NCBI RefSeq assembly: GCF_020010925.1
Contig: NZ_JAGJBZ010000002.1
Location: 2,604,001-2,668,000, forward strand
From: Streptomyces griseiscabiei
GTDB lineage: Bacteria > Actinomycetota > Actinomycetes > Streptomycetales > Streptomycetaceae
Length of the DNA stretch: 64,000 nt
Direction of reading: 5' to 3'
Position numbers and translations under genes: made by a program. Below are positions 1 through 14,373 of this stretch, one piece after another; positions within the stretch are counted from its first letter, which is position 1, and each line of letters begins with the position of its first letter. The notes under the pieces were generated by a model. It saw only the letters and a program-made list of their open reading frames with translations, ran no database searches and was not told the DNA's origin.

Positions 1-571
1 GGACGACCGTGCAGCCGGCCGCGAGCGCCGGGGCGACCTTCCAACTCGCCAGTGTCAGCGGGAAGTTCCATGGTACGACCGCGCCCACCACCCCGGCGGG
101 CTCCCGGGTGACGAGGGCCAGGGAGTCGGGGGCGGTGTGCGGCGACTCGTCGGTGAGCTTGTCGGCCAGCTGCCCGTACCAGCGGAACGTGGTGATCGCG
201 GCGCGCAGTTCGATGTCGTGCGCCTCCGTGTACGGCTTGCCCATCTCCAGAGTGATGGTCAGGGCGAGCCTCTCCCGCTGCTCTTCGAGGAGTTCGGCGA
301 CCCGGAGCAGGACGCGGCCCCGGTCGGCGGGGGCCAGACGCGGCCAGGGGCCGGAGTCGAAGGCGCGGCGGGCGGCGGCCACGGCGAGGCCGACCTCGGC
401 GTCGCCGGCGTCGGCGACCTCGACGAGGACCTGCCCGTCGCGGGGGGACACGACGGCGAAGGAGGCGCCCCCGCCCGCTTCGTCCACCCCGTCGATGTGG
501 TGCCTGCCGGGCAGGTCCAGCTCCTTGGCGCGACGGAGCAGTACGTCGTGTGCGGGGGCGGGGGCGGGCAT
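1..571 (-). CDS. NAD(P)-dependent aldehyde dehydrogenase, PuuC-like (N-terminal part only)
   Basis: About 190 N-terminal residues are present; the gene runs off the left edge, so the catalytic Cys and Glu are not visible. The visible part has the family's cofactor-domain start: an RWYGQLADK stretch, then VREP-type residues and PWNFPL followed by WKVAPALAAG. The RWY region resembles gamma-glutamyl-gamma-aminobutyraldehyde dehydrogenase (PuuC) and related amine-pathway enzymes. The ATG at 571 follows a GGAGC ribosome-binding sequence. It lies 45 bp downstream of the permease gene on the same strand, so the two are probably co-transcribed. With the glutamine-synthetase-like gene at 8.7 kb, this fits oxidation of an aldehyde derived from a glutamylated or free amine. 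The family assignment is secure; the substrate is inferred. Confidence 0.85.
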   Translation of the reverse strand, partial: MPAPAPAHDVLLRRAKELDLPGRHHIDGVDEAGGGASFAVVSPRDGQVLVEVADAGDAEVGLAVAAARRAFDSGPWPRLAPADRGRVLLRVAELLEEQRERLALTITLEMGKPYTEAHDIELRAAITTFRWYGQLADKLTDESPHTAPDSLALVTREPAGVVGAVVPWNFPLTLASWKVAPALAAGCTVV

Positions 572-616
572 GGGCGCTCCTCTTCTTGTCGTTTCTCGGT
601 GGTTCCTGGACCGGGG

Positions 617-2074
617 TCAGTCCGTGGCCGGCCGGCCGCCCCGGGTCACCCGTGCCGCGACGAGACCCAGGACCAGCACCACCGGCACGGTCAGCTGCAG
701 CCACATCGCGGTGGTGCTGTCGCCGCCGATGAGGGTGGTGAAGTTCACGATGATCAGCCAGATCGCCCCGGCGATGCCGAGCGCGCCGAGCACCGGTGCG
801 ATCAGTGTGTTCCAGGGCCGGGTGTCGGCGCGGGTGCGGCGGAAGAAGACGACCACGGAGACGGAGGTCAGGAAGTACAGCAGCATCATCGCGAGGACGG
901 CCACACCGCTGAACCAGGAGAACAGCGTCAGCACGGGATCCTTGCCCAGCACGGCGAACGGGACGATCAGGGCCGCCGCGATCACGGTCTGGACGACACC
1001 GGCCGCCCAGGGGGAGTGGCGGCTGTTGAGCGTGGTCAGCCCGCGCGGCAGCAGACCCTCGCGGCCCAGGGAGAACAGATAGCGGTTGGCGGAGTTGTGG
1101 AACGCCAGGATGCCGGCGAACAGGGAGGTGGCCAGCAGCACGGGCAGGACGTCGCCGGTCCAGGCGCCGAACTCCGCCGCGATGGGGGCGAAGACCCAGC
1201 CCGCCGCGTCGCCGCCCTCCAGCGCCTTGCCCGCCTCCGCCGTGGCCTGGGACGCGCCGTGCGCGGAGACCAGCATCCAGGAGGTGAAGGCGAAGAAGCC
1301 GGTGACCACCGCGACCGACAGATAGGTGGCGCGCGGCACCGTCTTCCTGGGCTCCCGGGCCTCCTCGCCGTAGATGGCGGTCGCCTCGAAGCCGAACATC
1401 GACGCCACGGCGAACATCAGCGCCACCCCGGGGGCGCCCTGGAGCGCCGCGTCGGGCGAGAAGCTGTCGGCGAGGCCGAGCCCCTCGGGGCCGCCGCCCT
1501 TGACGAAGGTCACCACGGCGAAGGCGATCAGGATGCTGAACTCCGCCAGCACGAACACGGCCAGCACCTTGGCGCCCATCTCGATCCCGGCGGCGCCGAG
1601 GACCTGGACGACCACCATCGTCACCAGCGCCCACACCCACCAGGCGATGCTGACATCGGCGTAGTGCTCGACGAGACCGCTCACCGTGGCGCCGTAGAGC
1701 CCGTACATCGCGGCCTGGATGGCGCAGTACGCGAAGAGCGCGACACCGGCGCTGCCGGAGCCGGCCGACCGGCCGAGTCCCTTGCCGATGTAGGTGTAGA
1801 AGGCGCCGGCGTCGACGACATGGCGGCCCATGGTGACGAAGCCGATGGAGAAGAGCAGGATCACGACGCCGGCCGCGATGTACGCGGCGGGGACCCCGGC
1901 GCCGTTGCCGATGACGACGGCGATGGGGACGGCGCCGGCGATGCCCGTCAGCGGGGCCTGGGCGGAAAGGACGAAGAAGAGGATGCCCAGGACACCGAGC
2001 GAATCGGGCTTGAGCCTGCCTGCCGTGGAGGGGTCTGGTGCGTGGTGCGGGGCGACCGCCGTCTGACTGTCCAC
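617..2074 (-). CDS. APC-superfamily amino acid/amine permease
   Basis: The 485-residue protein has about twelve hydrophobic segments and the amino acid-polyamine-organocation signature near the N-terminus (FFVLSAQAPLTGIAGAVP), then FGFEATAIYGEEAREPRKT in the middle, typical of bacterial APC permeases. It should sit in the plasma membrane and import an amino acid or amine by cation symport. An in-frame GTG at 2083 would add three residues, but the GTG at 2074 has AGGTGA five bases upstream and is preferred. A palindrome GTTTAGGCCCAAAC lies at 2112-2125, the same operator type as near the ferredoxin and glutamine-synthetase-like genes. PuuP-type transporters accompany PuuA/PuuC enzymes in glutamylation pathways, which supports amine import here. 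The exact substrate is unknown. Confidence 0.88.
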   Translation of the reverse strand: MDSQTAVAPHHAPDPSTAGRLKPDSLGVLGILFFVLSAQAPLTGIAGAVPIAVVIGNGAGVPAAYIAAGVVILLFSIGFVTMGRHVVDAGAFYTYIGKGLGRSAGSGSAGVALFAYCAIQAAMYGLYGATVSGLVEHYADVSIAWWVWALVTMVVVQVLGAAGIEMGAKVLAVFVLAEFSILIAFAVVTFVKGGGPEGLGLADSFSPDAALQGAPGVALMFAVASMFGFEATAIYGEEAREPRKTVPRATYLSVAVVTGFFAFTSWMLVSAHGASQATAEAGKALEGGDAAGWVFAPIAAEFGAWTGDVLPVLLATSLFAGILAFHNSANRYLFSLGREGLLPRGLTTLNSRHSPWAAGVVQTVIAAALIVPFAVLGKDPVLTLFSWFSGVAVLAMMLLYFLTSVSVVVFFRRTRADTRPWNTLIAPVLGALGIAGAIWLIIVNFTTLIGGDSTTAMWLQLTVPVVLVLGLVAARVTRGGRPATD

Positions 2075-2111
2075 TCGGATCACCTGTCGGGGACGGGGAG
2101 GGATGGGTTTC

Positions 2112-2125
2112 GTTTAGGCCCAAAC
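2112..2125. promoter_or_regulatory. Operator-like palindrome upstream of the permease
   Basis: GTTTAGGCCCAAAC has arms GTTTRG/CCAAAC (one mismatch), flanked by C and G to extend the symmetry. A half-site GTTTGG follows at 2156-2161. The same 14-bp pattern recurs at 8574-8587 and 8681-8694, so all three probably bind one regulator, most simply the TetR protein encoded at 2280-2966. Confidence 0.65.
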
Positions 2126-2233
2126 GAGTTGCCTCATCGTGGGCCCGAACTATCCGTTTGGCAAGGGGGCTCGTGAAGATTTTCAGGAGGTGTGGCCGAC
2201 GGGTGCGACAGGAGCGCGCGGGCACACCGAGAA

Positions 2234-2258
2234 GCCCCGGACGACGGACGCCCGGGGC
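2234..2258 (-). terminator. Probable terminator hairpin after the TetR gene
   Basis: GCCCCGG and CCGGGGC can pair across an 11-base loop, 22 bases past the TetR stop codon. No T tract follows, as is usual in Streptomyces. It would separate the TetR transcript from the permease promoter. Confidence 0.45.
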
Positions 2259-2279
2259 CGTGACCACTGAGGTCAGAGG

Positions 2280-2966
2280 CTATGCGAGGGCGTCGCCCAC
2301 CACGTCGGCGTCGCTCACCGCGTCGGCGTCGCCCACCGCGTCGGCCTCGTCGTCCCGGCGGGCGTCGCCGTTCGCGTGCAGCAGCCGCAGCAGGGTGCGC
2401 AGCTCCTCCACGGCCCGGTCCGTGACCTCCGGCTCGTCGAAGACCAGCTGGTGCAGCACCAGCCCGTCCAGCGCGGCGAAGACCAGCCGGGTCAGCGCCT
2501 GGTCCGCGCCGGCCGGGAGCATCCGGCCCAGCTCGCGCCGGGCGGCGTCGAAGTACTCGTCGTACAGCTCACGGATCTGCGGCAGCAGCTCCGGCCGGCG
2601 GCGGGACTCCAGCAGCAGCTCGTACTGGAACGCCTGGGTGTCCGGATCGGCCGTGACCATCTCGGACAGCCCGACGGAGAAGTCCGCGACCCTGCCGGTG
2701 CCCGGTTCCAGGGAGCTGGTGTCGAGCGAGGTGCGGATGGTGTGGGCGAGGGCCTCCTCGATCAGCGCGTCCCGCGACCCGAAGTGGTGCACGACGAGAC
2801 CATGGGTGACCCCCGCCTGCTCCGCGACCGCCCGGTAGGTGAGCTTGCGCAGCCCGCCCCGCGCCACCACGTGCACGGCGGCGTTCAGCAGGGCCTCGCG
2901 GCCCGCGCCGTAGTGGAGGCGCTTGCGTGGCCGTCGGCTCTTCGGGACGTCGGCGGAGTCGGTCAT
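2280..2966 (-). CDS. TetR-family transcriptional regulator
   Basis: The 228-residue protein has an N-terminal TetR DNA-binding domain at about residues 17-65 (GREALLNAAVHVVARGG, then YRAVAEQAGVTHGLVVHHFG) and a helical ligand-binding domain. The ATG at 2966 begins MTDSADVPKSRRPRKR; no other start keeps a cleaner N-terminus. It lies between the meta-cleavage enzyme genes and the permease on the same strand, so it is the natural candidate regulator of the locus and of the GTTTGGnnCCAAAC operators. The last 20 or so residues are an acidic Asp-Ala-Val tail encoded by three 18-bp tandem repeats, unusual for the family. Ligand unknown; a pathway amine or aromatic acid is likely by context. Confidence 0.88.
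   Translation of the reverse strand: MTDSADVPKSRRPRKRLHYGAGREALLNAAVHVVARGGLRKLTYRAVAEQAGVTHGLVVHHFGSRDALIEEALAHTIRTSLDTSSLEPGTGRVADFSVGLSEMVTADPDTQAFQYELLLESRRRPELLPQIRELYDEYFDAARRELGRMLPAGADQALTRLVFAALDGLVLHQLVFDEPEVTDRAVEELRTLLRLLHANGDARRDDEADAVGDADAVSDADVVGDALA
2290..2343. repeat. Three 18-bp tandem repeats inside the TetR gene
   Basis: Units at 2290-2307, 2308-2325 and 2326-2343 follow GCGTCGCYCACCRCGTCG, differing at two positions. They encode the repeated Val-Gly/Ser-Asp-Ala-Asp tail of the regulator. Copy number could vary by slippage without shifting the frame. Confidence 0.85.
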
Positions 2967-3025
2967 GCGCGTGACCCTACCCGCCTTCCTCCCGCCCGCC
3001 ACGGGCCCGTCTCCACCCCGGGAGG

Positions 3026-3871
3026 TCACCGCCGGGGCGGGCGGACGCCACGGAACTCCCAGTCGCCGCCGAGCGCGGTGGACAGCACCTCCTCGGACTC
3101 GGTGGGCTGCGCGCCCACGTCGCTCCGTACGGCGGTGGGGCCGGTCACGATGTGGTTGGTGAGCCGGCCGAGGCCCTCCACCTCCACCTCGACGACATCG
3201 CCGGGCTGGACCGGCCGGGAGTTGGCCGGGGTGCCGGAGAGCAGGACGTCGCCCGGGTACAGCGTGATGGTGCGGGCGATGTCGGCGACGAGGTAGTGCA
3301 TGTCCCACTTCATCTCGTCCGTCGAACCGTCCTGGACGACCTCGCCGTTGACGTACGTCCGCAGCCGCTTGCCGTGGAAGTCCCAGTCGGTGACGAGCCC
3401 CGGCCCGAGCGGGCAGAGGGTGTCGGAGCCCTTCACCCGCAGCATCGAACCGGCGTCGGTGTCACGGAAGTCGTGCAGACCGTAGTCGTTGGCGACCGTG
3501 TAGCCGGCGATGTACTCGCCCGCCTCGGCGGGGGAGATGTTCCGCGCGGTCTTCCCGATGACGATGGCGACCTCGCCCTCGTAGTTGAGCCACTTGCAGC
3601 CGTCGGGCCGGACGATCGCGCCCTGGTGGGAGTTGAGGGAGGAGGTCGGCTTGTGGAAGTAGGTGGGTGTCTGAGGAAGATCGATCTGGAACTCGTCGAC
3701 GCGGCTGCGGTGGTTGAGGTGGACGGCGATCACCTTGGACGGCACGACCGGCGGGAGGTGCCGGGCCTCCTCGGTCTTGACGCGGCGGCCGTCACCGGCG
3801 ACCAGTTCGTCGCCGTCGACGGTGACGTCGACGGTGGCTCCGTCGAGAAGGATGCGGCGGTACTCAGGCAT
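3026..3871 (-). CDS. Fumarylacetoacetate-hydrolase-family protein (HpaG-like)
   Basis: The 281-residue protein carries the FAH fold: YFHKPTSSL, then the metal-site motif YEGEVAIVIGK near residue 97 and GYTVANDYGLHDFR, with TLYPGDVLLSGTPAN near the end. The family comprises Mg-dependent hydrolases, hydratases and decarboxylases acting on ring-cleavage products. In the homoprotocatechuate pathway the FAH-family member HpaG decarboxylates and isomerises the tricarboxylate made by HpaE. Here it directly follows HpaD-like and HpaE-like genes and overlaps the former by 8 bp, so translational coupling is likely. The ATG has GGAG seven bases upstream. The role as isomerase/decarboxylase comes from the neighbours, not from a diagnostic residue. 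Confidence 0.85.
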   Translation of the reverse strand: MPEYRRILLDGATVDVTVDGDELVAGDGRRVKTEEARHLPPVVPSKVIAVHLNHRSRVDEFQIDLPQTPTYFHKPTSSLNSHQGAIVRPDGCKWLNYEGEVAIVIGKTARNISPAEAGEYIAGYTVANDYGLHDFRDTDAGSMLRVKGSDTLCPLGPGLVTDWDFHGKRLRTYVNGEVVQDGSTDEMKWDMHYLVADIARTITLYPGDVLLSGTPANSRPVQPGDVVEVEVEGLGRLTNHIVTGPTAVRSDVGAQPTESEEVLSTALGGDWEFRGVRPPRR

Positions 3872-4790
3872 GGGTGGGCTCCGTGGTGGTGGTCGTAGGG
3901 GTGCTGCCGGTCCAGCCGTCGGCGGGGCGGTCGAACCAGAGGTGGACCTGTCCGGTGCCGATGGAGTTCTCGTACGCGCCGTACTGGCGGGCCCTGGCGG
4001 TGCAGGCCCGCTCGCCGAGCGCGCCGGCCATCATCAGGTAGTGGAAGAACTTCGCCTCGGGCTTGTACTTCCAGAACGCGTCCATGGTGTCGAGGACCCT
4101 GTCGTGGCGGCCCTCCTTGAACCAGGCGATGCGCTCGTGGTCCGCCTCGCGCGCCTCGGGCGTGAAGATGTGGACCGGGTCGCTGGACTCGTGGTCGCGC
4201 AGCTCGCGCAACGGCCAGAAGGTGTGCGACAGCGCTCCGGAGGCGATCACCAGCACACGCCGCCCCTCGGTCGCGGCGATCCCGTCGGCGAGCGCCCGCC
4301 CCAGCCGCAGATGGTCCTCCATGTCCCCGGTCTGGCAGACCCCGATGGTCACCCACCGCTTGTCCGGCAGGCCCTCGCCGAGGAACTTCCAGAGGTTGAT
4401 CGTGGCGTAGTAGATCGGCAGGTACTCGTCCTCGATCGCGGTGATCCAGGTGCCGTGCTTGTCGGCGAACTTCTCGATGTTGTGGGCGAGTTCGGGGTCA
4501 CCGGGGAAGTCGTACGGCATCCGGCACATCCCGCGCGGCAGCTCCTCGGAGGTGAAGAGCCCGGCCCTGCGCTGCTGGGCGGTGACCACGAACTCGACCG
4601 TGGTGGCCCAGTGGGAGTCGAGGACGACGACGGTGTCGTAGTCGTCGCGCTCGAAGACGTCCTTGCGCAACTGCCGGAGCCCGGTGACGAGGGTGATCTC
4701 CCTGCCCTCGTTCAGCTCCAGCCGGTCGGCCTCCGGCAGCACGATGGTGGGGACGTGGGCGAGCAGCCCGGCCCCGACGATCTCACCCAT
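3864..4790 (-). CDS. hpaD: Class III extradiol dioxygenase, 3,4-dihydroxyphenylacetate 2,3-dioxygenase-like
   Basis: The 308-residue protein belongs to the LigB-type non-haem iron dioxygenases. It starts GEIVGAGLLAHVPT with the early metal-ligand His, followed by VVVLDSHW, TSEELPRGMCRM, LVIASGALSHTFW and a C-terminal SIGTGQVHLWFD. These correspond in order to the HpaD of enteric bacteria (THVP, DTHW, TSNELP, ASGSLSH, SSGTGQVN). The expected reaction is O2-dependent meta-cleavage of homoprotocatechuate or a close catechol. It overlaps the HpaE-like gene upstream and the FAH gene downstream by 8 bp each, so it belongs to a tightly coupled operon. GGAGG lies about nine bases before the ATG. Another catechol could be the true substrate. 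Confidence 0.82.
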   Translation of the reverse strand: MGEIVGAGLLAHVPTIVLPEADRLELNEGREITLVTGLRQLRKDVFERDDYDTVVVLDSHWATTVEFVVTAQQRRAGLFTSEELPRGMCRMPYDFPGDPELAHNIEKFADKHGTWITAIEDEYLPIYYATINLWKFLGEGLPDKRWVTIGVCQTGDMEDHLRLGRALADGIAATEGRRVLVIASGALSHTFWPLRELRDHESSDPVHIFTPEAREADHERIAWFKEGRHDRVLDTMDAFWKYKPEAKFFHYLMMAGALGERACTARARQYGAYENSIGTGQVHLWFDRPADGWTGSTPTTTTTEPTHA

Positions 4791-6246
4791 GGTCCTGGTT
4801 CCCTCCGTTCGGCGCGGTCACGGTGTTCTTCAGGTCGCAGTAGAAGTCGAAGCTCCAGGTGCCGCCCTCCCGGCCGACCCCGGAGTGCCGGGAGCCGCCG
4901 AAGGGCGCCCGCAGGTCGCGGACGAAGAAGCAGTTCACCCAGACCGTGCCCGCGACCAGCCGCTCGGTCACCCGCGCGGCGCGCTCGGTGTCACCGGTGG
5001 CGACGGTGGCCGCCAGTCCGAACCGGGTGTCGTTGGCGAGCCGGACCGCCTCGTCCTCGTCGGTGAAGGTCTGCAGGGTCAGGACCGGCCCGAAGACCTC
5101 CTCCTGCACGATCTCCGAGTCCTGGGCGACATCGGTGAGCAGCGTGGGCGCGTAGTACTGCCCGTCCTTCGGGTGCCCGCCGACGACCACCCGGGCCCCG
5201 TCCGCGACCGCCCGCCGCACGAACCCGTCGATCTTCTCCAGCTGCAGGGGATGGATGTTGGGCCCGATGTCGGTGGTCTCGTCCCGGGGGTCCCCCTGTA
5301 CGAGGGCTCCGGCCTTCTCGACGAACCTCCGGGTGAACTCCTCGGCGACCGATTCCTCCACCAGGAACCGGGTGGCCGCGAGACAGACCTGCCCGGCGTT
5401 GTCGTACTGCTCCACCGCGAGGTCGACGGCCAGCTCCAGATCGGCGTCCGCGAACACCAGCAGCGGTGACTTGCCGCCCAGTTCGAGGCTGAGCGGAGTG
5501 AGGTTCGGCGCCGCCGACGCGGCGATCCGCTTGGCCGTCGGCACCGACCCGGTGAAGCTGATCCGCCGTACGTCCGGATGCGAGGTGAGCGCGTCACCGA
5601 TCTCCGACCCGTACCCCTGTACGACATTGAGCACCCCGGCGGGCAGCCCCGCCTCGGCGGCGATGTCCGCCAGCAGCGACGCGGTCAGCGGTGTCCACTC
5701 GGCGGGCTTCAGAATCACCGTGTTGCCGGCCGCCAGCGCCGGCGCGACCTTCCAGGTGGCCAGCATCAGCGGCGCGTTCCACGGAGTGATCAGCACGGAC
5801 GGCCCCGCCGGGTCCCAGCTCACGTGGTTGGCGTGCCCGCGTGTCTCGAACTCCTCGTGCTCCAGCGTCAGCAGCCGGTCCGCGAAGAACCGGAAGTTGT
5901 GCGCCACCCGGGGCATGACGCCTCGGCGGTGGGAGCGCAGCAGGGCCCCGTTGTCGTTCGTCTCGACGATCGCCAGCTCTTCGAGCCGCTTCTCGACCCC
6001 GTCGGCGACGGCGTGCAGCAGACGGGCGCGCTCGGCGCGAGGGGTGGCGGCCCAGGCGGGGAACGCCTCCCGGGCGGCGGCGACGGCGGCCTCGACCTCG
6101 GCCGCACCGCCACGGGCGATCTCACCGAGAACGCGCCCGTCGATGGGGGAGACATCGGTGAAGGTCCCGGCGGAGGCGACCCGCCGCCCACCGATCCAGT
6201 GTCGGGTGTCGACGGAGACCCCGGCGACGATGATCTTGTCAGACAT
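4783..6246 (-). CDS. hpaE: 5-carboxymethyl-2-hydroxymuconate-semialdehyde-type dehydrogenase
   Basis: The 487-residue aldehyde dehydrogenase has VLITPWNAPLMLATWK, the glycine motif FTGSVPTAK, catalytic Glu in LELGGKSPLL and the catalytic Cys in NAGQVCLAATR, with EEVFGPVL and a C-terminal FGGSRHSGVGREGG. The MPRVAHNFRFFADRLL and WVNCFFVRDLRAPFGG regions match HpaE of the homoprotocatechuate pathway. It would oxidise the semialdehyde released by the HpaD-like enzyme next to it. The ATG at 6246 is preferred, with GGAG eight bases upstream; a longer in-frame extension would run into the repeat at 6281-6326 and is not believable coding sequence. Confidence 0.85.
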   Translation of the reverse strand: MSDKIIVAGVSVDTRHWIGGRRVASAGTFTDVSPIDGRVLGEIARGGAAEVEAAVAAAREAFPAWAATPRAERARLLHAVADGVEKRLEELAIVETNDNGALLRSHRRGVMPRVAHNFRFFADRLLTLEHEEFETRGHANHVSWDPAGPSVLITPWNAPLMLATWKVAPALAAGNTVILKPAEWTPLTASLLADIAAEAGLPAGVLNVVQGYGSEIGDALTSHPDVRRISFTGSVPTAKRIAASAAPNLTPLSLELGGKSPLLVFADADLELAVDLAVEQYDNAGQVCLAATRFLVEESVAEEFTRRFVEKAGALVQGDPRDETTDIGPNIHPLQLEKIDGFVRRAVADGARVVVGGHPKDGQYYAPTLLTDVAQDSEIVQEEVFGPVLTLQTFTDEDEAVRLANDTRFGLAATVATGDTERAARVTERLVAGTVWVNCFFVRDLRAPFGGSRHSGVGREGGTWSFDFYCDLKNTVTAPNGGNQDHG

Positions 6247-6280
6247 GAAGATGGCTCCAGATGTACGAAGAGGGGAACGG

Positions 6281-6326
6281 CCGCGCCCCTTCAGGGGCGC
6301 GGGGAACTGCGCGACCAGCCACAACG
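6281..6326. repeat. Interspersed Streptomyces palindromic repeat, copy 1
   Basis: A palindrome (CCGCGCCCCT, TC, AGGGGCGCGG; 6281-6302) runs straight into GGGGAACTGCGCGACCAGCC. The core from 6293 to 6314 is identical to two copies at 40300-40321 and 40379-40400. It fills the gap between the decarboxylase-family gene and the HpaE-like gene and may act as a hairpin within the operon. Such elements are widespread in Streptomyces genomes. Confidence 0.8.
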
Positions 6327-6348
6327 AACCCGCAGTCGCCCACGAACC

Positions 6349-7161
6349 TCACTCGGCAACCGCTTCGGACGTCCCGGACTCCAACAACCGTCCGCCGTCC
6401 CAGACAACGCCCACCTGCCGGTAGTACGCGGCGATCGGCTCACGAACCTCCAGCCGAGCCAACTCCTCCGTAGGCGCCTCGAACAACTCCAGCTCGGCCT
6501 CACCCATCCACGCCTGACCCGCCTCGAAGGACGCCGCCCCGGTCTCGATCAGCTCGTCGAGCGCCAGCCCCTTGCCGTTCTCGATGGACGGCAGCCACCG
6601 GTGGTGCGCCATGGGGTGCGCGTTCACGAACCCGTTGGTCTCCGCGGGCTCCCGCAGCGTGACCACGGTCTGGGCGAGGCGCCGGTCGGCGGCGGCCAGC
6701 GTCGCCCCGAACCGCGCCCCGGCGGCGATCCGCGGAGCGGGCCCGTACGGATGGGGCCGCGTCTGGTGGATGGACCCGAGCTTCTTCGGATACCCCTGGT
6801 GCAGCCCACGGGCGATCGCGAAGTCCTTGTCGACCCAGATGTAGACGCACCGCGAGTACGTCCGCCCCTTGTACCCGCAGCGGACGACCGCGAAGGCCTC
6901 CTTGTACTGCGAGAGCACCGGATCGAGCAGCTCGGCCCCCGACGCGGAGCAGGACTGCCAGTCGGCCCAGATCAGCGCGACCGCGCCCGGGTCCTCGTCG
7001 GCCAGTTCCAGCGGCTCGGGCAGCAGCTCACGTACCCGCGCCGGGTCCGTGCGGTACTCGACGGTGAGCAGGTCGCCCGAGTAGCGCCACGGCGGGGCGG
7101 GGATCAGCGACGAGGCACCGCTCGCCGTCTTGGGGTGGAAGTAGCCACGGACAGCAGACAT
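6349..7161 (-). CDS. Acetoacetate-decarboxylase-family protein
   Basis: The 270-residue protein has family landmarks: an early PPWRYSGDLLTVEYRTDP, the central CVYIWVDKDFAIARG, then GYPKKLGSI, which holds the lysine pair that forms the Schiff base in acetoacetate decarboxylase. Family members also include non-decarboxylating enzymes that catalyse aldol or dehydration chemistry. Its gene lies between the ferredoxin reductase (12 bp away) and the HpaE-like gene, all on one strand. It could decarboxylate or rearrange a beta-keto intermediate of the ring-cleavage branch, but no standard homoprotocatechuate enzyme belongs to this family. The family call is firm; the reaction is open. Confidence 0.8.
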   Translation of the reverse strand: MSAVRGYFHPKTASGASSLIPAPPWRYSGDLLTVEYRTDPARVRELLPEPLELADEDPGAVALIWADWQSCSASGAELLDPVLSQYKEAFAVVRCGYKGRTYSRCVYIWVDKDFAIARGLHQGYPKKLGSIHQTRPHPYGPAPRIAAGARFGATLAAADRRLAQTVVTLREPAETNGFVNAHPMAHHRWLPSIENGKGLALDELIETGAASFEAGQAWMGEAELELFEAPTEELARLEVREPIAAYYRQVGVVWDGGRLLESGTSEAVAE

Positions 7162-7173
7162 GAGAGGGGATCC

Positions 7174-8364
7174 TTACGCGGTGAGGGCGGGCTGCTTCAG
7201 CAGTTCGGCGCGGTAGCGGGCGGCGGCGGACACGGCCCGGGGGCCGCCGAGCGCGACGACGCCGACCAGCCGGCCGCCGTGGTGGTAACCGACCAGGACA
7301 TCGGCGGCGGGGTCGCCGTCCAGGACCCGTACGTCGTCCCGGCCGAGCACGGGTGCGCCGAAGGACTGGAGCCGGAAGTCGTGCTGGTCGCTCCAGAACG
7401 TGGGAAGCGGCGCGAAGGGCGGCAGCTCGGCGCCGGTGAGGACCTTCGCCGCGTGCTTGGCGGTGTCGGTGGGGATGGACCAGTGCTCGACCCGGCGGGG
7501 CACGCCGTCGTAGCGGGCGTTGGGGAACCGGGCGACATCACCGACGGCGACCACCTCGGGTCGGCCGCCGACCCGCAGCTGGGCGCAGGTGAGCACGCCG
7601 TCGGAGAGGTCGAGGCCGTTGCCCTCCAGCCACTCCACGTTGGCGACCGAGCCCACCGACTCCACGACCACGTCGGCGGGCAGGACGGTCCCGTCGTCCA
7701 GCACGACGCCGGTGACCCGGTCCTCGCCCTCGAACCCGGCGACGCCCCTGCCGAGCGCGAACCGCACCCCGCGCTCCTCGTGCCGCCGCAGCAGCGCGCG
7801 CCCGAGGAGTTCGCCGAGCGGCCCGACCATGGGCAGCTCCAGCGGATCGACGACGGTGACCTCGGCGACGCCGAGTCCCACGGCGGTGGCGGCGACCTCG
7901 CAGCCGATGAAACCGGCACCGACCACGACCACCCGGACCCCGGGCCGGGTCAGCTCGTCCCGCAGGCCCTGCGCGTCGGCGAGGGTGCGGACCGTGTGCC
8001 GGCCGGTCAGGGGGCCGGGGCAGCGCAGCCGCCGGGGCCGCATCCCGGTGGCGACGACCAGGGCGTCGTAGGCGAGCACCGAGCCGTCGTCCAGTGCGAC
8101 GGTCCGGTCGGCCAGGCGGGAGGCGACGACCTTCGTACCGAGGCGCCACTCCACGTCGGCCACGCTCGCCCGGGGGCGGAAGGCCAGCGACTCGAAGGGC
8201 GCCTTTCCGGCCAGCACCTCCTTGGAGAGCGGGGGCCGGTTGTACGGCATGTGGGGCTCGTCGCCGACGACGGTGACCGCCCCGGTCCAGCCGGCCGCGC
8301 GCAGCTGCTCGGCGGCGCGCAGCCCGGCCATGGAGGCGCCGGCCACGACAACGCGTGTGCTCAT
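7174..8364 (-). CDS. FAD-dependent ferredoxin reductase for the P450 system
   Basis: The 396-residue flavoprotein starts with an FAD-binding dinucleotide fold (VVVAGASMAGLRAAEQL), has PYNRPPLSKEVL, a second dinucleotide fold for NAD(P)H at about residues 145-175 (VVVVGAGFIGCEVAA) and a late FAD motif VVAVGDVARFPN. This is the putidaredoxin-reductase/rubredoxin-reductase architecture. It starts at an ATG five bases after the ferredoxin stop, so the two are co-translated. It should pass NAD(P)H electrons to that ferredoxin and then to the P450 encoded divergently at 10.1 kb, in the cytoplasm. Confidence 0.9.
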   Translation of the reverse strand: MSTRVVVAGASMAGLRAAEQLRAAGWTGAVTVVGDEPHMPYNRPPLSKEVLAGKAPFESLAFRPRASVADVEWRLGTKVVASRLADRTVALDDGSVLAYDALVVATGMRPRRLRCPGPLTGRHTVRTLADAQGLRDELTRPGVRVVVVGAGFIGCEVAATAVGLGVAEVTVVDPLELPMVGPLGELLGRALLRRHEERGVRFALGRGVAGFEGEDRVTGVVLDDGTVLPADVVVESVGSVANVEWLEGNGLDLSDGVLTCAQLRVGGRPEVVAVGDVARFPNARYDGVPRRVEHWSIPTDTAKHAAKVLTGAELPPFAPLPTFWSDQHDFRLQSFGAPVLGRDDVRVLDGDPAADVLVGYHHGGRLVGVVALGGPRAVSAAARYRAELLKQPALTA

Positions 8365-8369
8365 GGCGG

Positions 8370-8558
8370 TCAGGCCTCGATCCGGATGGCCTGCAGCGGA
8401 CAGACGTCGGCGGCTTCCTCGACCTCGTCGAGCAGCGCGTCGTCGGGGTCGCTGACATAGGCCAGGCGCCCGTTCCCGTCGAGCTGGAAGACGTCGGGGG
8501 CGGCGAAGACACACTGCCCGTGGTCCTGGCACTTGTTCATGTCGACGACGACCTTCAT
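8370..8558 (-). CDS. Small 3Fe-4S-type ferredoxin
   Basis: The 62-residue protein has Cys in CQDHGQC (residues about 10-16) and VCPLQAI near the end, i.e. a C-x5-C ... C-P pattern with His where a fourth cluster Cys would be. This is typical of actinobacterial 3Fe-4S ferredoxins serving P450s. An ATG with GGAGGT four bases upstream fixes the start; longer in-frame starts overlap the operator at 8574-8587. It is the first gene of the leftward operon and electron donor for the P450, reduced by the next gene's product. Confidence 0.92.
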   Translation of the reverse strand: MKVVVDMNKCQDHGQCVFAAPDVFQLDGNGRLAYVSDPDDALLDEVEEAADVCPLQAIRIEA

Positions 8559-8723
8559 GGTGACCTCCAACTCGTTTGGCTTCAAACAACATAGGAAGTC
8601 GCCCACCCCTGGTCAATACCTGTCCAGGTGGATAATTTTTCTGTCCGACCCCCTTGCGGGCCGCTGTGGTCGTTCTTATCGTTTGGCACCAAACAACTGG
8701 TCCGAGCCGCCGAGGAGACAACG
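8559..8723. promoter_or_regulatory. Divergent promoter region with two operator palindromes
   Basis: This 165-bp gap separates the leftward ferredoxin operon from the rightward glutamine-synthetase-like gene. It holds GTTTGGCTTCAAAC at 8574-8587 and GTTTGGCACCAAAC at 8681-8694, one for each arm. Both are followed by AAC and resemble the site at 2112-2125. GAGGAG at 8712-8717 is the ribosome-binding site of the rightward gene. Coordinated repression by one regulator is the simplest reading. Confidence 0.7.
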
Positions 8724-10094
8724 GTGAGCGCATCCGAAACACCGGCCGTCAGGCACCAAGCCGTCGCGCACCACCAGGAGCGGCTGGCCGCCGAGGGCAT
8801 CGACGTGGTCCGGGTGACCTATCCGGACCTGATCGGCACCGACCGGGCCCGTGACGTGCTGCTGGAGCAGCTGCCGACGGCGTGCGAACACGGCCTCGCC
8901 TTCTGCAAGGCCGTCTACCACACCTCGCCGCAGGGCGATGTCGTCCCCGTCGCGGGCGGTCTGGACGCCGGACTGCCGGACATCCACGTCCGCCCGGACC
9001 TCGACACCCTGGTCGCCCTGCCCTGGGAGCCCGGCGTCGCCACCTGTCTCGGCGAGACCATCGACCCGGCCACCGGGGCACCCGCCCCCGAGTCCCCCCG
9101 GGACCTGCTGCGCTCGGTGCTCGCCCGCTGCGCCGAACAGGGCCTGCGCCCGGTGGTCGGCCCCGAGCTCGAATACTTCCTCTGCGACGAGGACCCCGGC
9201 TCCCCGAGCGGCTGGAAGCGCTACTCCGGCGCCGCCGGCGTCGTCTACACCGCCGGTCTGCGCGCCGACCCCGACAACCACCTCCTGCGCACCCTGCGCC
9301 AGCTCCGCGATCTGCGCATCGGGGTCACCAACGGCAACCACGAGTTCGACGGCGGCCAGTTCGAGATCAACCTCACCCACTCCGAGGCCCTCAGCGCCGC
9401 CGACCGCTCCTTCCGCTTCAAGGCCGCCGTCAAGGAACTTGCGCGCAAGGAGGGCCGCCTCGCCACCTTCATGGCCCGGCCCTTCAACGACGCGGGCGGC
9501 TCCGGCTTCCACCTCCACCTCTCCTGCGACGACGAGCAGGGGAACAACGCCTTCGACGACCCCGAGGGCCGGTACGGGCTGTCCACGACCGCCCGGCACG
9601 CCATCGCCGGTGTCCTCGCCCACGCCCCGGCCCTCGCCGCCCTCGCCAACCCCACCGTCAACTCCTACAAGCGCTTCGGCCCGGACACCCTCGCCCCCTG
9701 GCTGATCGACTGGGGCCTGGACAACCGCAGCGCCATGGTCCGCATCCCGCCCGAGCGCGGCTTGGGCGCCCGCCTCGAACTGCGCCTCGGCGACGCCGGC
9801 GCCAACCCGTATCTGCTGATCGCCGGCACCATCGCCGCCGCGCTGCTCGGGGTGCTGGCGGGCGAGGAACCCGCCGCCCCCCTGGAGGGCTACGGCTACG
9901 ACACCGCCCGCGCGGCCGTCCTGCCGATGAGCCTGCCCGCCGCTCTCGACGCGCTGGAGGCGGACACCGCACTCACCGAGATCCTCGGCAAGGACTTCAC
10001 CACCTCGTACCTCACCTACAAGCGCGACGAGGTCGCACGCTTCCAACGGCACGTCACCGACTGGGAGTTCACCGAGTACGCCTACCACCTGTGA
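8724..10094 (+). CDS. Glutamine-synthetase-like ligase (probable gamma-glutamylamide synthetase)
   Basis: The 456-residue protein keeps the GS catalytic landmarks: metal ligands in GPELEYF (about residues 147-152), GGQFEIN (Glu214), GSGFHLHLS (His263/265), NSYKRF, NRSAMVRIP and the LELR glutamate near 352. It lacks the conserved N-terminal GS stretches of true GlnA and resembles PuuA/GlnA3/GlnA4-type enzymes that join glutamate to an amine using ATP. The GTG at 8724 was chosen because GAGGAG lies six bases upstream and the operator would lie inside a longer version. A P450 gene follows 20 bp later. With the permease and PuuC-like dehydrogenase it suggests a gamma-glutamyl amine pathway; the amine is unknown, aromatic by context. 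Confidence 0.85.
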   Translation: MSASETPAVRHQAVAHHQERLAAEGIDVVRVTYPDLIGTDRARDVLLEQLPTACEHGLAFCKAVYHTSPQGDVVPVAGGLDAGLPDIHVRPDLDTLVALPWEPGVATCLGETIDPATGAPAPESPRDLLRSVLARCAEQGLRPVVGPELEYFLCDEDPGSPSGWKRYSGAAGVVYTAGLRADPDNHLLRTLRQLRDLRIGVTNGNHEFDGGQFEINLTHSEALSAADRSFRFKAAVKELARKEGRLATFMARPFNDAGGSGFHLHLSCDDEQGNNAFDDPEGRYGLSTTARHAIAGVLAHAPALAALANPTVNSYKRFGPDTLAPWLIDWGLDNRSAMVRIPPERGLGARLELRLGDAGANPYLLIAGTIAAALLGVLAGEEPAAPLEGYGYDTARAAVLPMSLPAALDALEADTALTEILGKDFTTSYLTYKRDEVARFQRHVTDWEFTEYAYHL

Positions 10095-10114
10095 CGCCCG
10101 GGAGAACCACCACC

Positions 10115-11419
10115 ATGACCACTTCCGCCCACCTTCCCACCGCCTTCGCCCGCGAGGCCGTGGAAGAGCCCATGCCGCTGGACGACGTAAACCTCGCCGA
10201 CCTCGACAACTTCACCGACGGCATCACACCGTGGCGCATGTTCCACACCCTGCGCCACCACGACCCCGTGCACTGGCAGCCCGAGGAGGCCCCCAACTCC
10301 GGCTTCTGGTCGGTCACCCGGCACGCCGACATCGCCACCGTCGACCGCGACGCCGAGACCTTCACCTCCACGAAGTTCGTCAACCTCGAAGAGGTCGACG
10401 ACGACCAGATCAGGACCCGCGCCTCCATCCTCGAACTGGACGGCGTCCGCCACCGCGCCCTGCGCAGCCTGCTCCAGCGCCAGTTCGGCGCCAACGTCAT
10501 CAACAGCTACGCCGACTTCCTGCGCGGCCTCACCGCCACCACCCTCGACACCGCCCTCGCCAAGGGCACCTTCGACTTCGTCGCCGACGTCTCCGCGGAC
10601 TTCCCCATCAACGTCCTCGCCCGACTCCTCGACGTCCCCCCGGAGGACAACCAGAAGCTCATCGACTGGGGCAACCGCATCATCGGCAACACCGACCCCG
10701 ACTACGCCGACGTCCTGCTCGGCAGCGCGGAGAGCGAGCAGTACAAGCATCTGCCCTTCCGCTCGCCCGCCTCCCTCGAAGTCTTCGAGTACGGCCGTGA
10801 ACTGGCCCGGCAGCGCCGCGGCGGCGACGGCACCGACCTGGTCTCCCGGCTCGTCAACACCACCCCGCGCGACGGGGTCCCGCTCTCCGCGCAGGACTTC
10901 GACAACTACTTCCTGCTGCTCGTCGTCGCCGGCAACGAGACCACCCGCCACACCATCACCCACTCCATGCTGGCCCTGCTCCAGCACCCCGAGCAGCTCG
11001 CCCGCCTCCAGGAGGACCCCTCCCTGATCCCGCTGGCGACCGAGGAGTTCCTGCGCTGGGCGTCCCCCGTCTACCACTTCCGCCGCACCGCGACCCGTGA
11101 CGTCGACCTCGGCGGCAAGCGGATCAAGGAGGGCGACAAGGTCGTCATGTGGTACGCCTCCGGCAACCGCGACGAGGCGGTCTTCGGCGACCCCTACGAC
11201 TTCGACGTGGCCCGCGCCGACAACGACCATGTCACCTTCGGCAAGGGCAGCCCGCACCTGTGCCTGGGCAATCTGCTGGCCCGCACCGAGATCCGCATCA
11301 TGTTCGAGGAGCTGATCCCGCGCCTCGCCGACATCCGCCTCGCCGGCGAGGTGCCCCGCGTCCGCTCCAACTTCGTCAACGGCATCAAGAAACTGCCGGT
11401 CGAGGTCACCCTCGCCTGA
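10115..11419 (+). CDS. Cytochrome P450 (class I, ferredoxin-dependent)
   Basis: The 434-residue soluble P450 has the I-helix LLLVVAGNETTRHT, the ExxR helix in TEEFLRWASP and a haem-ligand loop FGKGSPHLCLGNLLA. This loop has one residue more than the usual FGxGxHxCxG, as seen in CYP124/125/142-like enzymes. GGGAG precedes the ATG by about ten bases. It is expressed with the glutamine-synthetase-like gene, while its ferredoxin and reductase are encoded divergently under a matching operator. It would hydroxylate a pathway compound, possibly making the catechol that the HpaD-like enzyme opens. The P450 identity is certain; the substrate is inferred. Confidence 0.92.
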   Translation: MTTSAHLPTAFAREAVEEPMPLDDVNLADLDNFTDGITPWRMFHTLRHHDPVHWQPEEAPNSGFWSVTRHADIATVDRDAETFTSTKFVNLEEVDDDQIRTRASILELDGVRHRALRSLLQRQFGANVINSYADFLRGLTATTLDTALAKGTFDFVADVSADFPINVLARLLDVPPEDNQKLIDWGNRIIGNTDPDYADVLLGSAESEQYKHLPFRSPASLEVFEYGRELARQRRGGDGTDLVSRLVNTTPRDGVPLSAQDFDNYFLLLVVAGNETTRHTITHSMLALLQHPEQLARLQEDPSLIPLATEEFLRWASPVYHFRRTATRDVDLGGKRIKEGDKVVMWYASGNRDEAVFGDPYDFDVARADNDHVTFGKGSPHLCLGNLLARTEIRIMFEELIPRLADIRLAGEVPRVRSNFVNGIKKLPVEVTLA

Positions 11420-11533: not shown

Positions 11534-12694
11534 ATGCGGGCGATCGTCGTGGGGGCGGGCATCGGCGGACTGGCCGCGACCCTGAGTCTGCGGCACGCCG
11601 GGTGCGAGGTGACCCTGGTCGAGCAGGCGCCGCGCTTCACCGAGATCGGCGCCGGTATCCAGCTGGCGCCGAACGCCACCCGCGTCCTGCGCCGGCTCGG
11701 CGTCCTCGACGCGGTCGACGCCCGGTCCTCCCGGCCGTCCCGGCTGAGCTTTCGCACCTGGTCCGACGGCGGCGAGATCTGCCACTACGCGCTGGGCCGC
11801 GCGGCCGAGGACGCGTTCGGGGCGCCGTATCTCCAGGTCCACCGGGCCGATCTGCACCAGGCCCTCGCCGCCGCGGTGCCGCCCGCCGCGGTGCGGCTGG
11901 ACACCGTCGCCGTGGGCATCGACCAGGACGACACCTCCGCGCGGGTGACGACGGCCGACGGCGACCGGCTGACGGCGGACCTGGTCGTCGCCGCGGACGG
12001 TATACGATCCGCCGCCCGCCGATGGCTCTTCGGCGCCGACGAGGCGCTGTTCTCGGGGACCGCCGCCTACCGCTCGCTGGTGCCGGCCGAGCGGGTGGCC
12101 GACCTCGACCTCCCGGAGTACGCCCTCTGGCTCGGACCCGGACGGCACGTCGTGCACTACTGGGTACGGGGCGGCGAACTGCTCAACGTCGTGGGCGTCG
12201 TCGGCACCGACGCGGCCCGCGAGTCATGGACCGCCCGCGCCGAGCCGGAGGAGCAACTGCGCGCGTTCGAGGGGTGGGACCCCCGGGTGCGCGACGTCCT
12301 CGGCCGCACCGGCACGGTGCTCCGCCAGGGCATCCACACCCGCGCCCCGCTCGCCCGCTGGAACGTCGGCCGGGTCACGCTGCTCGGCGACAGCGCCCAC
12401 GCCATGGTGCCCTTCCAGGCCCAGGGTGCCGCCCAGGCCCTCGTCGACGCGGCCGTCCTCGGTGACTGCCTCACGGGCGCGGCACCGGCCGACGTGCCCG
12501 ACGCGCTCGACCGGTACGTGCGCCGACGGCTGGCCACCGCCACACGGGTGCAGGCCGGGTCGGCGCGGGCCGGTGAGGACTACCACCTCCCGGACGGGCC
12601 GGAGGCGCTCGCCCGCGACGCCCGGCTGGCCGCGCGGGCGGCGGAGAACGAGTTCGGCCCGCACGCGGGCGCGTGGGGGATCGACGAGGCGTAG
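11534..12694 (+). CDS. Class A flavoprotein monooxygenase (salicylate hydroxylase-like)
   Basis: The 386-residue enzyme has GAGIGGLAATLSLRHAG at the N-terminus for FAD, VVAADGIRSAARRWLFG (DG fingerprint) and GRVTLLGDSAHAMVPFQAQGA (GD motif). This is the single-component FAD/NAD(P)H hydroxylase family that includes salicylate and 3-hydroxybenzoate 6-hydroxylases. It would hydroxylate, sometimes decarboxylatively, an aromatic acid in the cytoplasm. GAGGTG lies just upstream of the ATG. It follows the P450 gene by 114 bp but has no GTTTGGnnCCAAAC site, so it may be regulated separately. Next comes a dicarboxylate transporter, which fits general aromatic/organic acid use. Substrate unknown. Confidence 0.85.
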   Translation: MRAIVVGAGIGGLAATLSLRHAGCEVTLVEQAPRFTEIGAGIQLAPNATRVLRRLGVLDAVDARSSRPSRLSFRTWSDGGEICHYALGRAAEDAFGAPYLQVHRADLHQALAAAVPPAAVRLDTVAVGIDQDDTSARVTTADGDRLTADLVVAADGIRSAARRWLFGADEALFSGTAAYRSLVPAERVADLDLPEYALWLGPGRHVVHYWVRGGELLNVVGVVGTDAARESWTARAEPEEQLRAFEGWDPRVRDVLGRTGTVLRQGIHTRAPLARWNVGRVTLLGDSAHAMVPFQAQGAAQALVDAAVLGDCLTGAAPADVPDALDRYVRRRLATATRVQAGSARAGEDYHLPDGPEALARDARLAARAAENEFGPHAGAWGIDEA

Positions 12695-12767
12695 GCGAGC
12701 GCGCAGGCGGAGACGGCTGTCGGTGGCACGGGGTGTCCTTTTCGGACGAACATCCAATATTTCAGCG

Positions 12768-12843
12768 AGGAGACTCCACGGGGTTCTGTGGAGTCTCCTG
12801 TTGATCCATAGTTACGGGCGTGTTTCGGAAGTCTCCTTCCGAA
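12768..12843. promoter_or_regulatory. Two perfect inverted repeats upstream of dctA
   Basis: AGGAGACTCCAC (12768-12779) and GTGGAGTCTCCT (12788-12799) form a perfect 12-bp stem with an eight-base loop. TTCGGAA (12824-12830) and TTCCGAA (12837-12843) form a second one. Both lie within 105 bp of the GTG start. Neither is followed by a T tract. They could be a terminator for the upstream gene plus an operator, or a leader hairpin for dctA. Confidence 0.5.
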
Positions 12844-12870
12844 TAGCGGAAGAAAGCTCGGAGGAAGCCC

Positions 12871-14373
12871 GTGTCGCTGTCCGTCCCGTCATCGTCACCG
12901 TCCCTGCCACGCCGCGCCGCCCGTCTGCTGCGCACCTCACTGTTCCTTCAGGTCGGCCTCGCCCTGGCGCTCGGGCTTCTCGTGGGACGGCTCTGGCCCG
13001 ATGTGGGCACGGCCGTCCAACCGCTGGGCGACGGCTTCGTGAGGCTCATCAAGGCGGTGATCGCGCCGCTGGTGTTCTGTGTCGTCGTCACCGGCATCGC
13101 CAAGGCCGGGAATCTGCGGGCGTTCGGGCGGATCGGCCTCAAGGCCCTGATCTGGTTCGAGGTGGCGACCACGTTCGCCCTGCTCATCGGCCTGGTCGCG
13201 GGCAACCTCTTCGCCCCGGGCGCCGGGATGAACGTCGACCCGGCCAAGCTCGACGCCGGAGCGGTCGACGACCGGACGGGCGGCGGTTCGCTGCCGTCGA
13301 CCAGTGAGTTCCTGCTGCACGCGCTGCCCGAGAGCGCGGTGGGCGCCTTCGCCGAGAACTCGCTGCTCCAGGTCCTGGTCCTGGCCTGTCTGGTGGGCGC
13401 CGCGCTGCTGCATCTCGGCCACACCAAGGTGCCCAAGATCCTGCCCGCCGTCGAGCAGGCGCAGGAGGTCGTCTTCGCGATCGTCGGCTTCATCATGAAG
13501 CTCGCCCCGCTCGCCGTCTTCGGGGCCACCGCCCACCTCGTCGGGCAGTACGGGCTGGGCGTGATGTCGACGTACGGCAAGCTCATCGCCGTCTGCTACG
13601 GCGTGGCCGCGCTGTTCCTGCTGCTGCTCGCGGTCGTGCTCAAGGCGGTCACCGGGCTGAGCCTGTGGCAGTTCGTCCGCTACACCCGTGAGGAGATGCT
13701 GCTCGCGCTGGGCACCGCCTCCAGCGAGACCGTCATGCCCCGCATGATGCAGAAGCTGCGCCACGCCGGGTGCCGGGACGACGCCGTGGGGCTCGTGGTG
13801 CCCACGGGGTACTCCTTCAACCTCGACGGCGCGTCCATCTACCTCTCCATCGCCACGCTCTTCATCGCCCAGGCCGTCGGCGTCGACCTCACGCTCGGCC
13901 AGCAGGTCACCGTCGTCCTGATGCTGATGCTCACCAGCAAGGGCATGGCGGGCGTCCCCGGTTCGGCCTTCCTCGCCCTCTCCGCGACCGCCTCCGCGCT
14001 CGGGGTCATCCCCGCCGGCGCGGTCGCCCTCCTCCTCGGCGTCGACCGCATCATGGACTCCATGCGCGTCGCCACCAACCTCCTCGGCAACTGCGTCGCC
14101 GCCTTCGGCGTCTCCCGCTGGGAGGGCGCCCTCGACACGGCCCGCGCGAAGAAGGTACTGGGCGGAGAGATGCCCTTCGTGGAGGAGTCGGACGACGAGC
14201 CCCACGGCGAACCGAGCGGCACCGCGGCCGCACCTGAGCCCCTGCCCGCCGCCGGACCGGAGGCCCCGCTCAAGTCCGGCCTCGCGGCCCCGCGCGAGGC
14301 CCTCGTCGGCCCCCGCGAACCCGCCGAGGCCCAGGCCGAGCCGAGCAAGAACCGCCCGCTGGAGACACCTTGA
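12871..14373 (+). CDS. dctA: Proton/sodium:C4-dicarboxylate symporter, DctA type
   Basis: The 500-residue membrane protein belongs to the dicarboxylate/amino acid:cation symporter family. It has FVRLIKAVIAPLVFCVVVTGIA, the serine-rich signature GTASSETVMPRM, VPTGYSFNLDGASIYLS, MLTSKGMAGVPGSAFL and VDRIMDSMRVATNLLGN in the order seen in DctA. It should import succinate, fumarate or malate. GGAGGA lies five bases before the GTG start. After about residue 440 comes a 60-residue Ala/Pro/Glu-rich tail not needed for transport. A perfect 12-bp inverted repeat lies upstream, suggesting transcriptional or leader control. Confidence 0.92.
   Translation: MSLSVPSSSPSLPRRAARLLRTSLFLQVGLALALGLLVGRLWPDVGTAVQPLGDGFVRLIKAVIAPLVFCVVVTGIAKAGNLRAFGRIGLKALIWFEVATTFALLIGLVAGNLFAPGAGMNVDPAKLDAGAVDDRTGGGSLPSTSEFLLHALPESAVGAFAENSLLQVLVLACLVGAALLHLGHTKVPKILPAVEQAQEVVFAIVGFIMKLAPLAVFGATAHLVGQYGLGVMSTYGKLIAVCYGVAALFLLLLAVVLKAVTGLSLWQFVRYTREEMLLALGTASSETVMPRMMQKLRHAGCRDDAVGLVVPTGYSFNLDGASIYLSIATLFIAQAVGVDLTLGQQVTVVLMLMLTSKGMAGVPGSAFLALSATASALGVIPAGAVALLLGVDRIMDSMRVATNLLGNCVAAFGVSRWEGALDTARAKKVLGGEMPFVEESDDEPHGEPSGTAAAPEPLPAAGPEAPLKSGLAAPREALVGPREPAEAQAEPSKNRPLETP

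Follow-up and report, generated by a model that had tools for sequence, protein, structure and literature searches.

A conserved Streptomyces locus that may degrade a phenethylamine-type amine under a glutamate cap

Introduction

Why would genes for glutamylating an amine share a regulon with genes for opening an aromatic ring, and in what order would their products act? The question is raised by a locus of Streptomyces griseiscabiei (assembly size 10.6 Mb) lying within the window analysed here, a stretch of 64,000 nt (C2:2604001-2668000, where C2 is contig NZ_JAGJBZ010000002.1). In it, a glutamine synthetase (GS)-like ligase, a PuuC-like aldehyde dehydrogenase (ALDH) and an APC permease stand beside a cytochrome P450 with its redox partners, enzymes resembling HpaD, HpaE and HpaG of homoprotocatechuate degradation, and an enzyme of the acetoacetate decarboxylase (ADC) fold. 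We lean slightly toward the reading that the locus is a single regulon for breaking down an amine of the phenethylamine type, tyramine being the likeliest, which bears a glutamate cap throughout. To the fuller version we give about an even chance: a complete biogenic-amine pathway in which a glutamate protecting group stays in place while the ring is hydroxylated and opened by extradiol cleavage and while oxidation, decarboxylation and retro-aldol cleavage follow, the Puu pathway is entered at gamma-glutamyl-4-aminobutanal, tyramine or dopamine yields pyruvate, CO2 and gamma-aminobutyric acid (GABA), and the ADC-fold enzyme covers two Hpa enzymes.

Locus layout and shared operator

Three gene units read outward from about 8.6 kb, and all share the operator CGTTTGGNNNCAAAC (Table 1). 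The plus-strand arm (8724-11419) encodes the ligase and then the P450. The minus-strand arm, from 8558 down to 2280, runs through ferredoxin, ferredoxin reductase, ADC-fold enzyme, HpaE-like enzyme, HpaD-like enzyme, FAH-type enzyme and a TetR regulator, with 8-nt overlaps in the FAH/HpaD and HpaD/HpaE gene pairs. The third unit comprises the permease, the PuuC-like ALDH, whose gene extends 925 bp left of position 1, and a PuuD-type hydrolase past the window edge. A first-pass annotation had placed most of these genes in one locus under one operator, and profile matches (Aldedh, AA_permease, FAA_hydrolase, LigB, a second Aldedh with HpaE as best family, Pyr_redox_2, Gln-synt_C and p450) together with operator sites at 8573 and 8680 (exact) and 2111 (one mismatch) bear this out. 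Its member list holds for the genes that it named and has to be extended by the ADC/MppR-like gene (6349-7161), which it missed, and the TetR gene (2280-2966). It further predicted two genes left of the window. One of them, for a glutamyl hydrolase, is the PuuD-type gene adjoining the ALDH end (L009:14329-15078); the other, for a glutamyl-amine oxidase, was not found in the 16 kb fetched, of which part of the open reading frames were scanned and where the PuuD-type gene is followed by cobN and then further cobalamin genes.

Allowing up to two mismatches, the operator matches the window six times, each of three sites being read on both strands, where 1.73 matches are expected; of 100 shuffled windows, one reached six. 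Its conservation was assessed over 80 Streptomyces relatives, in which both of the regions concerned could be placed in 73 each. Two sites lie between ferredoxin and ligase in 73/73, and a site precedes the permease in 71/73. Shuffled intergenic regions had one site in 19/1,460 cases and two in none, and among 1,600 random 230-base segments drawn from the loci themselves, with genuine sites left in, 64 carried one or two. Across the whole genome, up to one mismatch gives nine matches (some of them one site on both strands), and a reversed control pattern gives one.

An exact copy outside the locus lies 75 kb away at C2:2687584, beside a MarR gene and 56 bp beyond its stop. Orthologs of this MarR occur within the stretches of 36/80 relatives, mostly directly beyond PuuD, and a related site (up to three mismatches) precedes the MarR gene in 29 of those 36; a MarR-type regulator is therefore a likelier binder of the operator than the TetR protein. 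The distant MarR has a weak likeness to HpaR (44 of 121 bits), and another family ranks first (48 of 200). It is flanked by genes for a LysE exporter, a luciferase-like oxidoreductase and an Amidohydro_3 enzyme (L012:7191-11990; C2 ~2686-2691 kb), with ABC transporter genes farther off, and some of these genes may belong to the regulon. For the one-mismatch sites on C1 and C4, a brief look at the neighbours showed nothing connected.

Conservation

All eleven core genes are present in 63/80 Streptomyces loci, where HpaD-like identity is 85-94%, and PuuD is present in 70/80; a contig edge ends 10 of the 17 incomplete loci. An HpaD-like match (E<=1e-40) was found in 66/391 genomes sampled from the order and 36/396 sampled from the phylum, the genome itself included in both. 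The set also exists in rearranged form in Novosphingobium and in Actinomycetota other than Streptomyces, and across these loci of two phyla the ligase, P450 and ring genes remain together. The locus of Novosphingobium sp. EMRT-2 (~11 kb) has ligase, P450, HpaD, HpaE, FAH, ADC, a second ALDH and MarR; PuuD was not seen there. Fourteen loci were classed as divergent (L096, L098, L099, L158-L162, L164-L169), and outside this set stand L163 (without ligase), L170 and L171 (contig edges) and L172-L178 (HpaD paralog only). The ligase is in 12/14 divergent stretches and just outside the stretch in L164 and L169, the P450 is in 11/14 and just outside in L169, and HpaE is in 12, ADC in 11 and FAH in 10 (one at 32% identity).

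A second P450 (e.g., L097:16672-18122), usually with its own ferredoxin and often between TetR and permease, was seen in 18/89 stretches searched. FolD (13), PurU (8) and GcvT-like (3) genes follow it in some loci, suggesting a folate-linked demethylation variant.

Proposed route

The reactions that we infer begin with import of the amine, most likely tyramine, by the permease, after which the ligase would form gamma-glutamyltyramine. The P450, with ferredoxin and reductase, would hydroxylate the ring at position 3 to give gamma-glutamyldopamine, and the HpaD-like enzyme would cleave that ring at the 2,3 bond. The HpaE-like enzyme would then oxidise the semialdehyde and the FAH-type enzyme would decarboxylate the product, with glutamate retained in both steps. 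Hydration and chain splitting by the ADC-fold enzyme would release pyruvate and gamma-glutamyl-4-aminobutanal. The PuuC-like ALDH would convert this aldehyde to gamma-glutamyl-GABA, from which the PuuD-like hydrolase would free GABA and glutamate. Hpa chemistry on gamma-glutamyldopamine would give pyruvate, CO2 and OHC-CH2-CH2-CH2-NH-gammaGlu, and the carbon would balance (C8 = pyruvate 3 + CO2 1 + GABA 4). Because the ring-cleavage aldehyde would itself be a Puu intermediate, the locus would need no PuuB. The PuuC/PuuD tail would also favour a two-carbon side chain, since the final product would be beta-alanine from a benzylamine and something shorter from an aniline. A tag retained to the end would explain both the presence of every enzyme and why PuuB, HpaH and HpaI are missing.

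Amine-side enzymes

Set against the GlnA of the same genome, the ligase retains NRSA and RxExR but not the aspartate region FDGSS or the glutamate of PGFEAP; other GS-like paralogs of the genome likewise lack FDGSS and PGFEAP. We take the lost motifs to belong to the ammonium site of GS and the retained ones to its glutamate and ATP sites. The window ALDH matches no family better than PuuC, and the same holds for two distant ALDHs (L161, L165). PuuD is the best family for the hydrolase gene (70 bits, cut-off 266), which also matches Peptidase_C26 (168, cut-off 20.5). No PuuB was found among the scanned locus genes; neither the genome nor its relatives were searched with a PuuB profile. Glutamylation of aromatic amines is established for aniline and 1-naphthylamine in the part of PMC11335346 that was covered.

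Ring-side enzymes

In the HpaD-like enzyme, AHVP, DSHW and PEAKF, presumably the metal-ligand motifs of class III extradiol dioxygenases, align with canonical HpaD, and the His and Glu motifs are preserved. An ELPRG motif, absent from canonical HpaD rows, is found in 154/163 HpaD-like rows (near copies and overlapping records counted); the nine rows that lack it are L172-L178, which are HpaB-linked paralogs, Sphingobium L100 and L163. The FAH-type enzyme has HpaG (1gtt) as its best solved relative. Since HpaB has no match in the genome itself, in a search that finds matches in 4/14 controls, the P450 is the likely phenol hydroxylase. Its nearest solved chains are CYP125/CYP124. CYP151-type P450s are linked to morpholine and piperidine, and assignment to that cyclic-amine type was unsupported, given these nearest chains.

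The seven Streptomyces loci L172-L178 carry their HpaD paralog (56-57%) without the ligase set, near relatives of HpaB (7/7) and HpaC (4/7). Neighbours in L177 encode PvcA/DIT1, TauD, asparagine synthase, a pyridoxal phosphate (PLP) decarboxylase, an aminotransferase and a methyltransferase, and the paralog perhaps belongs to a natural-product cluster derived from 3,4-dihydroxyphenylalanine (DOPA).

An ADC-fold enzyme in place of HpaH and HpaI

The ADC gene product has 6eej/4zbo and MppR as solved relatives and retains the lysine motif. We assume that MppR and Sbi00515, its best solved relatives, are ADC-fold aldolase-dehydratases; such chemistry, for which no paper was found in the open-access literature, would permit the role of HpaH and HpaI if the gene product applies it to 2-oxo-3-enoates. 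Relatives of HpaH, HpaI and HpaF were found in 0/99 loci (80 Streptomyces and 19 others, the genome itself and L163 included), while ADC is in 94/99 (80/80 and 14/19). On account of this distribution we propose that the ADC-fold enzyme replaces HpaH and HpaI. The comparison loci L100, L179 and L180 have HpaH in 3/3, HpaI in 2/3, HpaF in 1/3 and ADC in 0/3, and the genome itself has HpaH and HpaI matches solely below cut-off (201/352 and 138/369). L100, on a plasmid of Sphingobium sp. TomTYG64, combines HpaD, HpaE and FAH relatives with HpaH and HpaI, and an annotated 3-oxosteroid 1-dehydrogenase lies nearby.

Comparison loci and trees

The actinobacterial locus L163 has an HpaE/ADC/FAH/HpaD tail with HpaB (363 of 480 bits) and a flavin reductase, and its stretch has no ligase, P450 or PuuD. 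Elsewhere in its genome there was no P450 match (E<=1e-60), and ligase relatives reach 34-35% identity only. HpaBC thus occupies the place of ligase, P450 and PuuD, which suggests a 4-hydroxyphenyl substrate. Plasmid pSLUN1 of S. lunaelactis has ligase, PuuC, PuuD, ADC and ring genes, and a search of the whole plasmid, and of the plasmid only, gave no P450 match at E<=1e-60. Directly after FAH it encodes a decarboxylase with tyrosine decarboxylase as best family (129 of 905 bits; PF00282 89.5 bits); if this acts on DOPA, ring hydroxylation would be unnecessary there. PLP amino-acid decarboxylases are found in 5/14 divergent loci.

Quick-mode trees were built for HpaD (20 of 24 rows, with L162, L166, L180 and L181 left out), FAH (16/23) and HpaE (18/23); branches are long, and groupings alone were used. 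In all three, L163 groups with the Sphingobium row, which is ligase-free (Shimodaira-Hasegawa-like approximate likelihood ratio test 90-93), and Novosphingobium is placed among ligase-type actinobacterial rows.

Weighing the readings

The first-pass annotation's broader claim, that one regulon imports, glutamylates and meta-cleaves an aromatic amine, probably of the phenethylamine type, is supported as a prediction. Its order of steps, phenylacetate formation followed by hydroxylation and cleavage, we consider unlikely. By that order nitrogen would be lost first, for example if the P450 oxidised the N-bound carbon of the glutamylated amine to give glutamine and an aldehyde, the PuuC-like ALDH would form hydroxyphenylacetate and HpaD would cleave free homoprotocatechuate. 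L163 has this ring tail with HpaBC and no ligase, so the tail can probably accept a phenylacetate, and the window ALDH also scores fairly well as a phenylacetaldehyde dehydrogenase (473 bits vs. 554 for PuuC). This order, however, leaves no role for PuuD, and if the P450 dealkylates, the locus is left without a ring hydroxylase in a genome without HpaB; moreover, ELPRG marks the HpaD-like enzymes of ligase loci and not canonical ones. A tag carried through ring cleavage, with PuuC and PuuD acting last, would agree better with the pairing of these two enzymes, with the divergent HpaD and with the lack of PuuB, HpaH and HpaI.

Much less probable is a route of the aniline type, in which an aromatic NH2 would be glutamylated, the tag would be lost as the P450 made a catechol, the PuuD-like enzyme would do no more than reverse glutamylation and the free catechol would be meta-cleaved. 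Ligase, GAT-like enzyme and oxygenase make up the aniline/1-naphthylamine architecture, as far as PMC11335346 was covered. The oxygenase beside the ligase here is, however, a P450 with ferredoxin and reductase and not a Rieske dioxygenase, and the PuuC-like ALDH and the decarboxylases of the divergent loci would go unexplained. We likewise hold it very improbable that the operator governs two independent modules, aliphatic-amine glutamylation (permease, ligase, PuuC, PuuD) and a separate aromatic ring cleavage: each half does resemble a known module and L163 carries the ring half without ligase and PuuD, but ligase, P450 and ring genes stay together in the rearranged loci of two phyla, and no PuuB was seen among the scanned locus genes, the relatives not having been profile-searched for it.

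Several observations weigh against retention of the glutamate cap. The PuuC and PuuD scores and the equivalog scores of HpaD, HpaE, HpaG-C and MppR fall below their cut-offs (Table 1), the solved relatives of the ligase do not discriminate between substrates, and the nearest solved P450 chains are, as we take it, lipid and steroid hydroxylases. A PuuD/GATase gene is in 6/14 divergent stretches and none was seen in 8, the GATase of L165 scores best as a different glutamine amidotransferase, and L160 and L167 lack both FAH and ADC. No HpaF-type isomerase was found in the 99 loci. The HpaD of L163 retains the arginine (EMPRAI), and since this locus has a 57% PuuC-like ALDH without ligase or PuuD, such an ALDH alone is no proof of a glutamylated substrate. 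The decarboxylases of L159, L160 and L165 have diaminobutyrate decarboxylases as best families, far under cut-off, and ligase-linked rows form no single clade in the HpaD, FAH or HpaE tree. Finally, the GAT-like enzyme of aniline operons merely reverses glutamylation, according to the part of PMC11335346 covered.

Table 1. Features of the locus. Positions are those of the window unless a locus handle (L) is given; scores are in bits.
Feature	Position	Strand	Evidence
PuuC-like aldehyde dehydrogenase, 498 aa, edge-cut	1..571 (whole: L009:15075-16571)	-	PuuC best family 553.8, cut-off 850; catalytic Cys303 and Glu268 motifs
PuuD-type gamma-glutamyl hydrolase, outside window	L009:14329-15078		PuuD 70, cut-off 266; 4-nt overlap with ALDH end
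APC amino-acid/amine permease	617..2083	-	AA_permease 88, cut-off 24.6
Operator of permease unit	2111..2125	.	CGTTTGGNNNCAAAC with 1 mismatch
TetR-family regulator	2280..2966	-	PF00440, PF17940
FAH-type enzyme, HpaG-like, proposed decarboxylase/isomerase	3026..3871	-	FAA_hydrolase 196; HpaG-C 212, cut-off 276
HpaD-like class III extradiol dioxygenase	3864..4790	-	LigB 88.7; HpaD 123.5, cut-off 316
HpaE-like semialdehyde dehydrogenase	4783..6246	-	HpaE 544, cut-off 638; start taken at MSDK
ADC-fold enzyme, proposed hydratase-aldolase	6349..7161	-	ADC 199; MppR 175, cut-off 380; GYPKK lysine motif
Ferredoxin reductase	7174..8364	-	Pyr_redox_2 and Reductase_C
Ferredoxin, 62 aa	8370..8558	-	C-x5-C and CP motifs, from sequence
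Operator of ferredoxin unit	8573..8587	.	CGTTTGGNNNCAAAC exact
Operator of ligase unit	8680..8694	.	CGTTTGGNNNCAAAC exact
Glutamine-synthetase-like ligase	8724..10094	+	Gln-synt_C 318
Cytochrome P450	10115..11419	+	FGKGSPHLCLG and AGNET motifs

Neighbouring genes

After the P450, positions 11534-14373 encode an FAD monooxygenase (best family 3-hydroxybenzoate 6-monooxygenase, below cut-off) and, judged from its sequence, a DctA-like transporter. Both were rejected as locus members, being found at high identity in just 1 and 2 of the 80 relatives, respectively; their rarity fits a locus end at 11419.

Significance and comparison with known systems

In the open-access literature, with most subscription papers outside the scope, we found no description of a glutamate tag carried through ring cleavage, and the portion of PMC10606097 covered gives no account of the proposed route. 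If the reading is right, the locus would stand for a widespread way of degrading aromatic amines in which neither amine oxidases nor their free aldehydes take part, and GABA would be the product of ring cleavage that carries the nitrogen. Functions would follow, too, for genes that many Streptomyces genomes currently annotate as 3,4-dihydroxyphenylacetate dioxygenase, catechol 1,2-dioxygenase, acetoacetate decarboxylase or glutamine synthetase.

Several known systems resemble parts of the locus. AtdA1-A5/NpaA1-A5, as described in the part of PMC11335346 covered, share with it a GS-like ligase acting on an aromatic amine, a GAT-like hydrolase, and then ring oxygenation and cleavage. In aniline and 1-naphthylamine degradation, however, what is cleaved is a free diol that a Rieske dioxygenase has made from the glutamylated amine (PMC11335346, same part), whereas the locus has a P450 and would keep the tag. 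The Puu pathway of putrescine (PuuA, B, C, D) has a comparable ligase, ALDH and hydrolase, and gamma-glutamyl-4-aminobutanal and gamma-glutamyl-GABA would be common intermediates; it differs in that no PuuB was seen among the scanned genes of the locus, the aldehyde would come from ring cleavage, and the scores lie below equivalog cut-offs. With the homoprotocatechuate pathway (HpaD, E, F, G, H, I) the locus shares steps of HpaD, HpaE and HpaG type and their logical sequence, but it has ADC and no relatives of HpaF, HpaH or HpaI, and its HpaD, HpaE and HpaG-C scores are below cut-offs. The tyramine/dopamine catabolon of Pseudomonas putida U reportedly uses homoprotocatechuate-type ring cleavage after the amine has been removed by oxidation, with no glutamylation. 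Lastly, although the MppR score of the ADC gene product stays below its cut-off, MppR and Sbi00515 are its best solved relatives and share its lysine motif.

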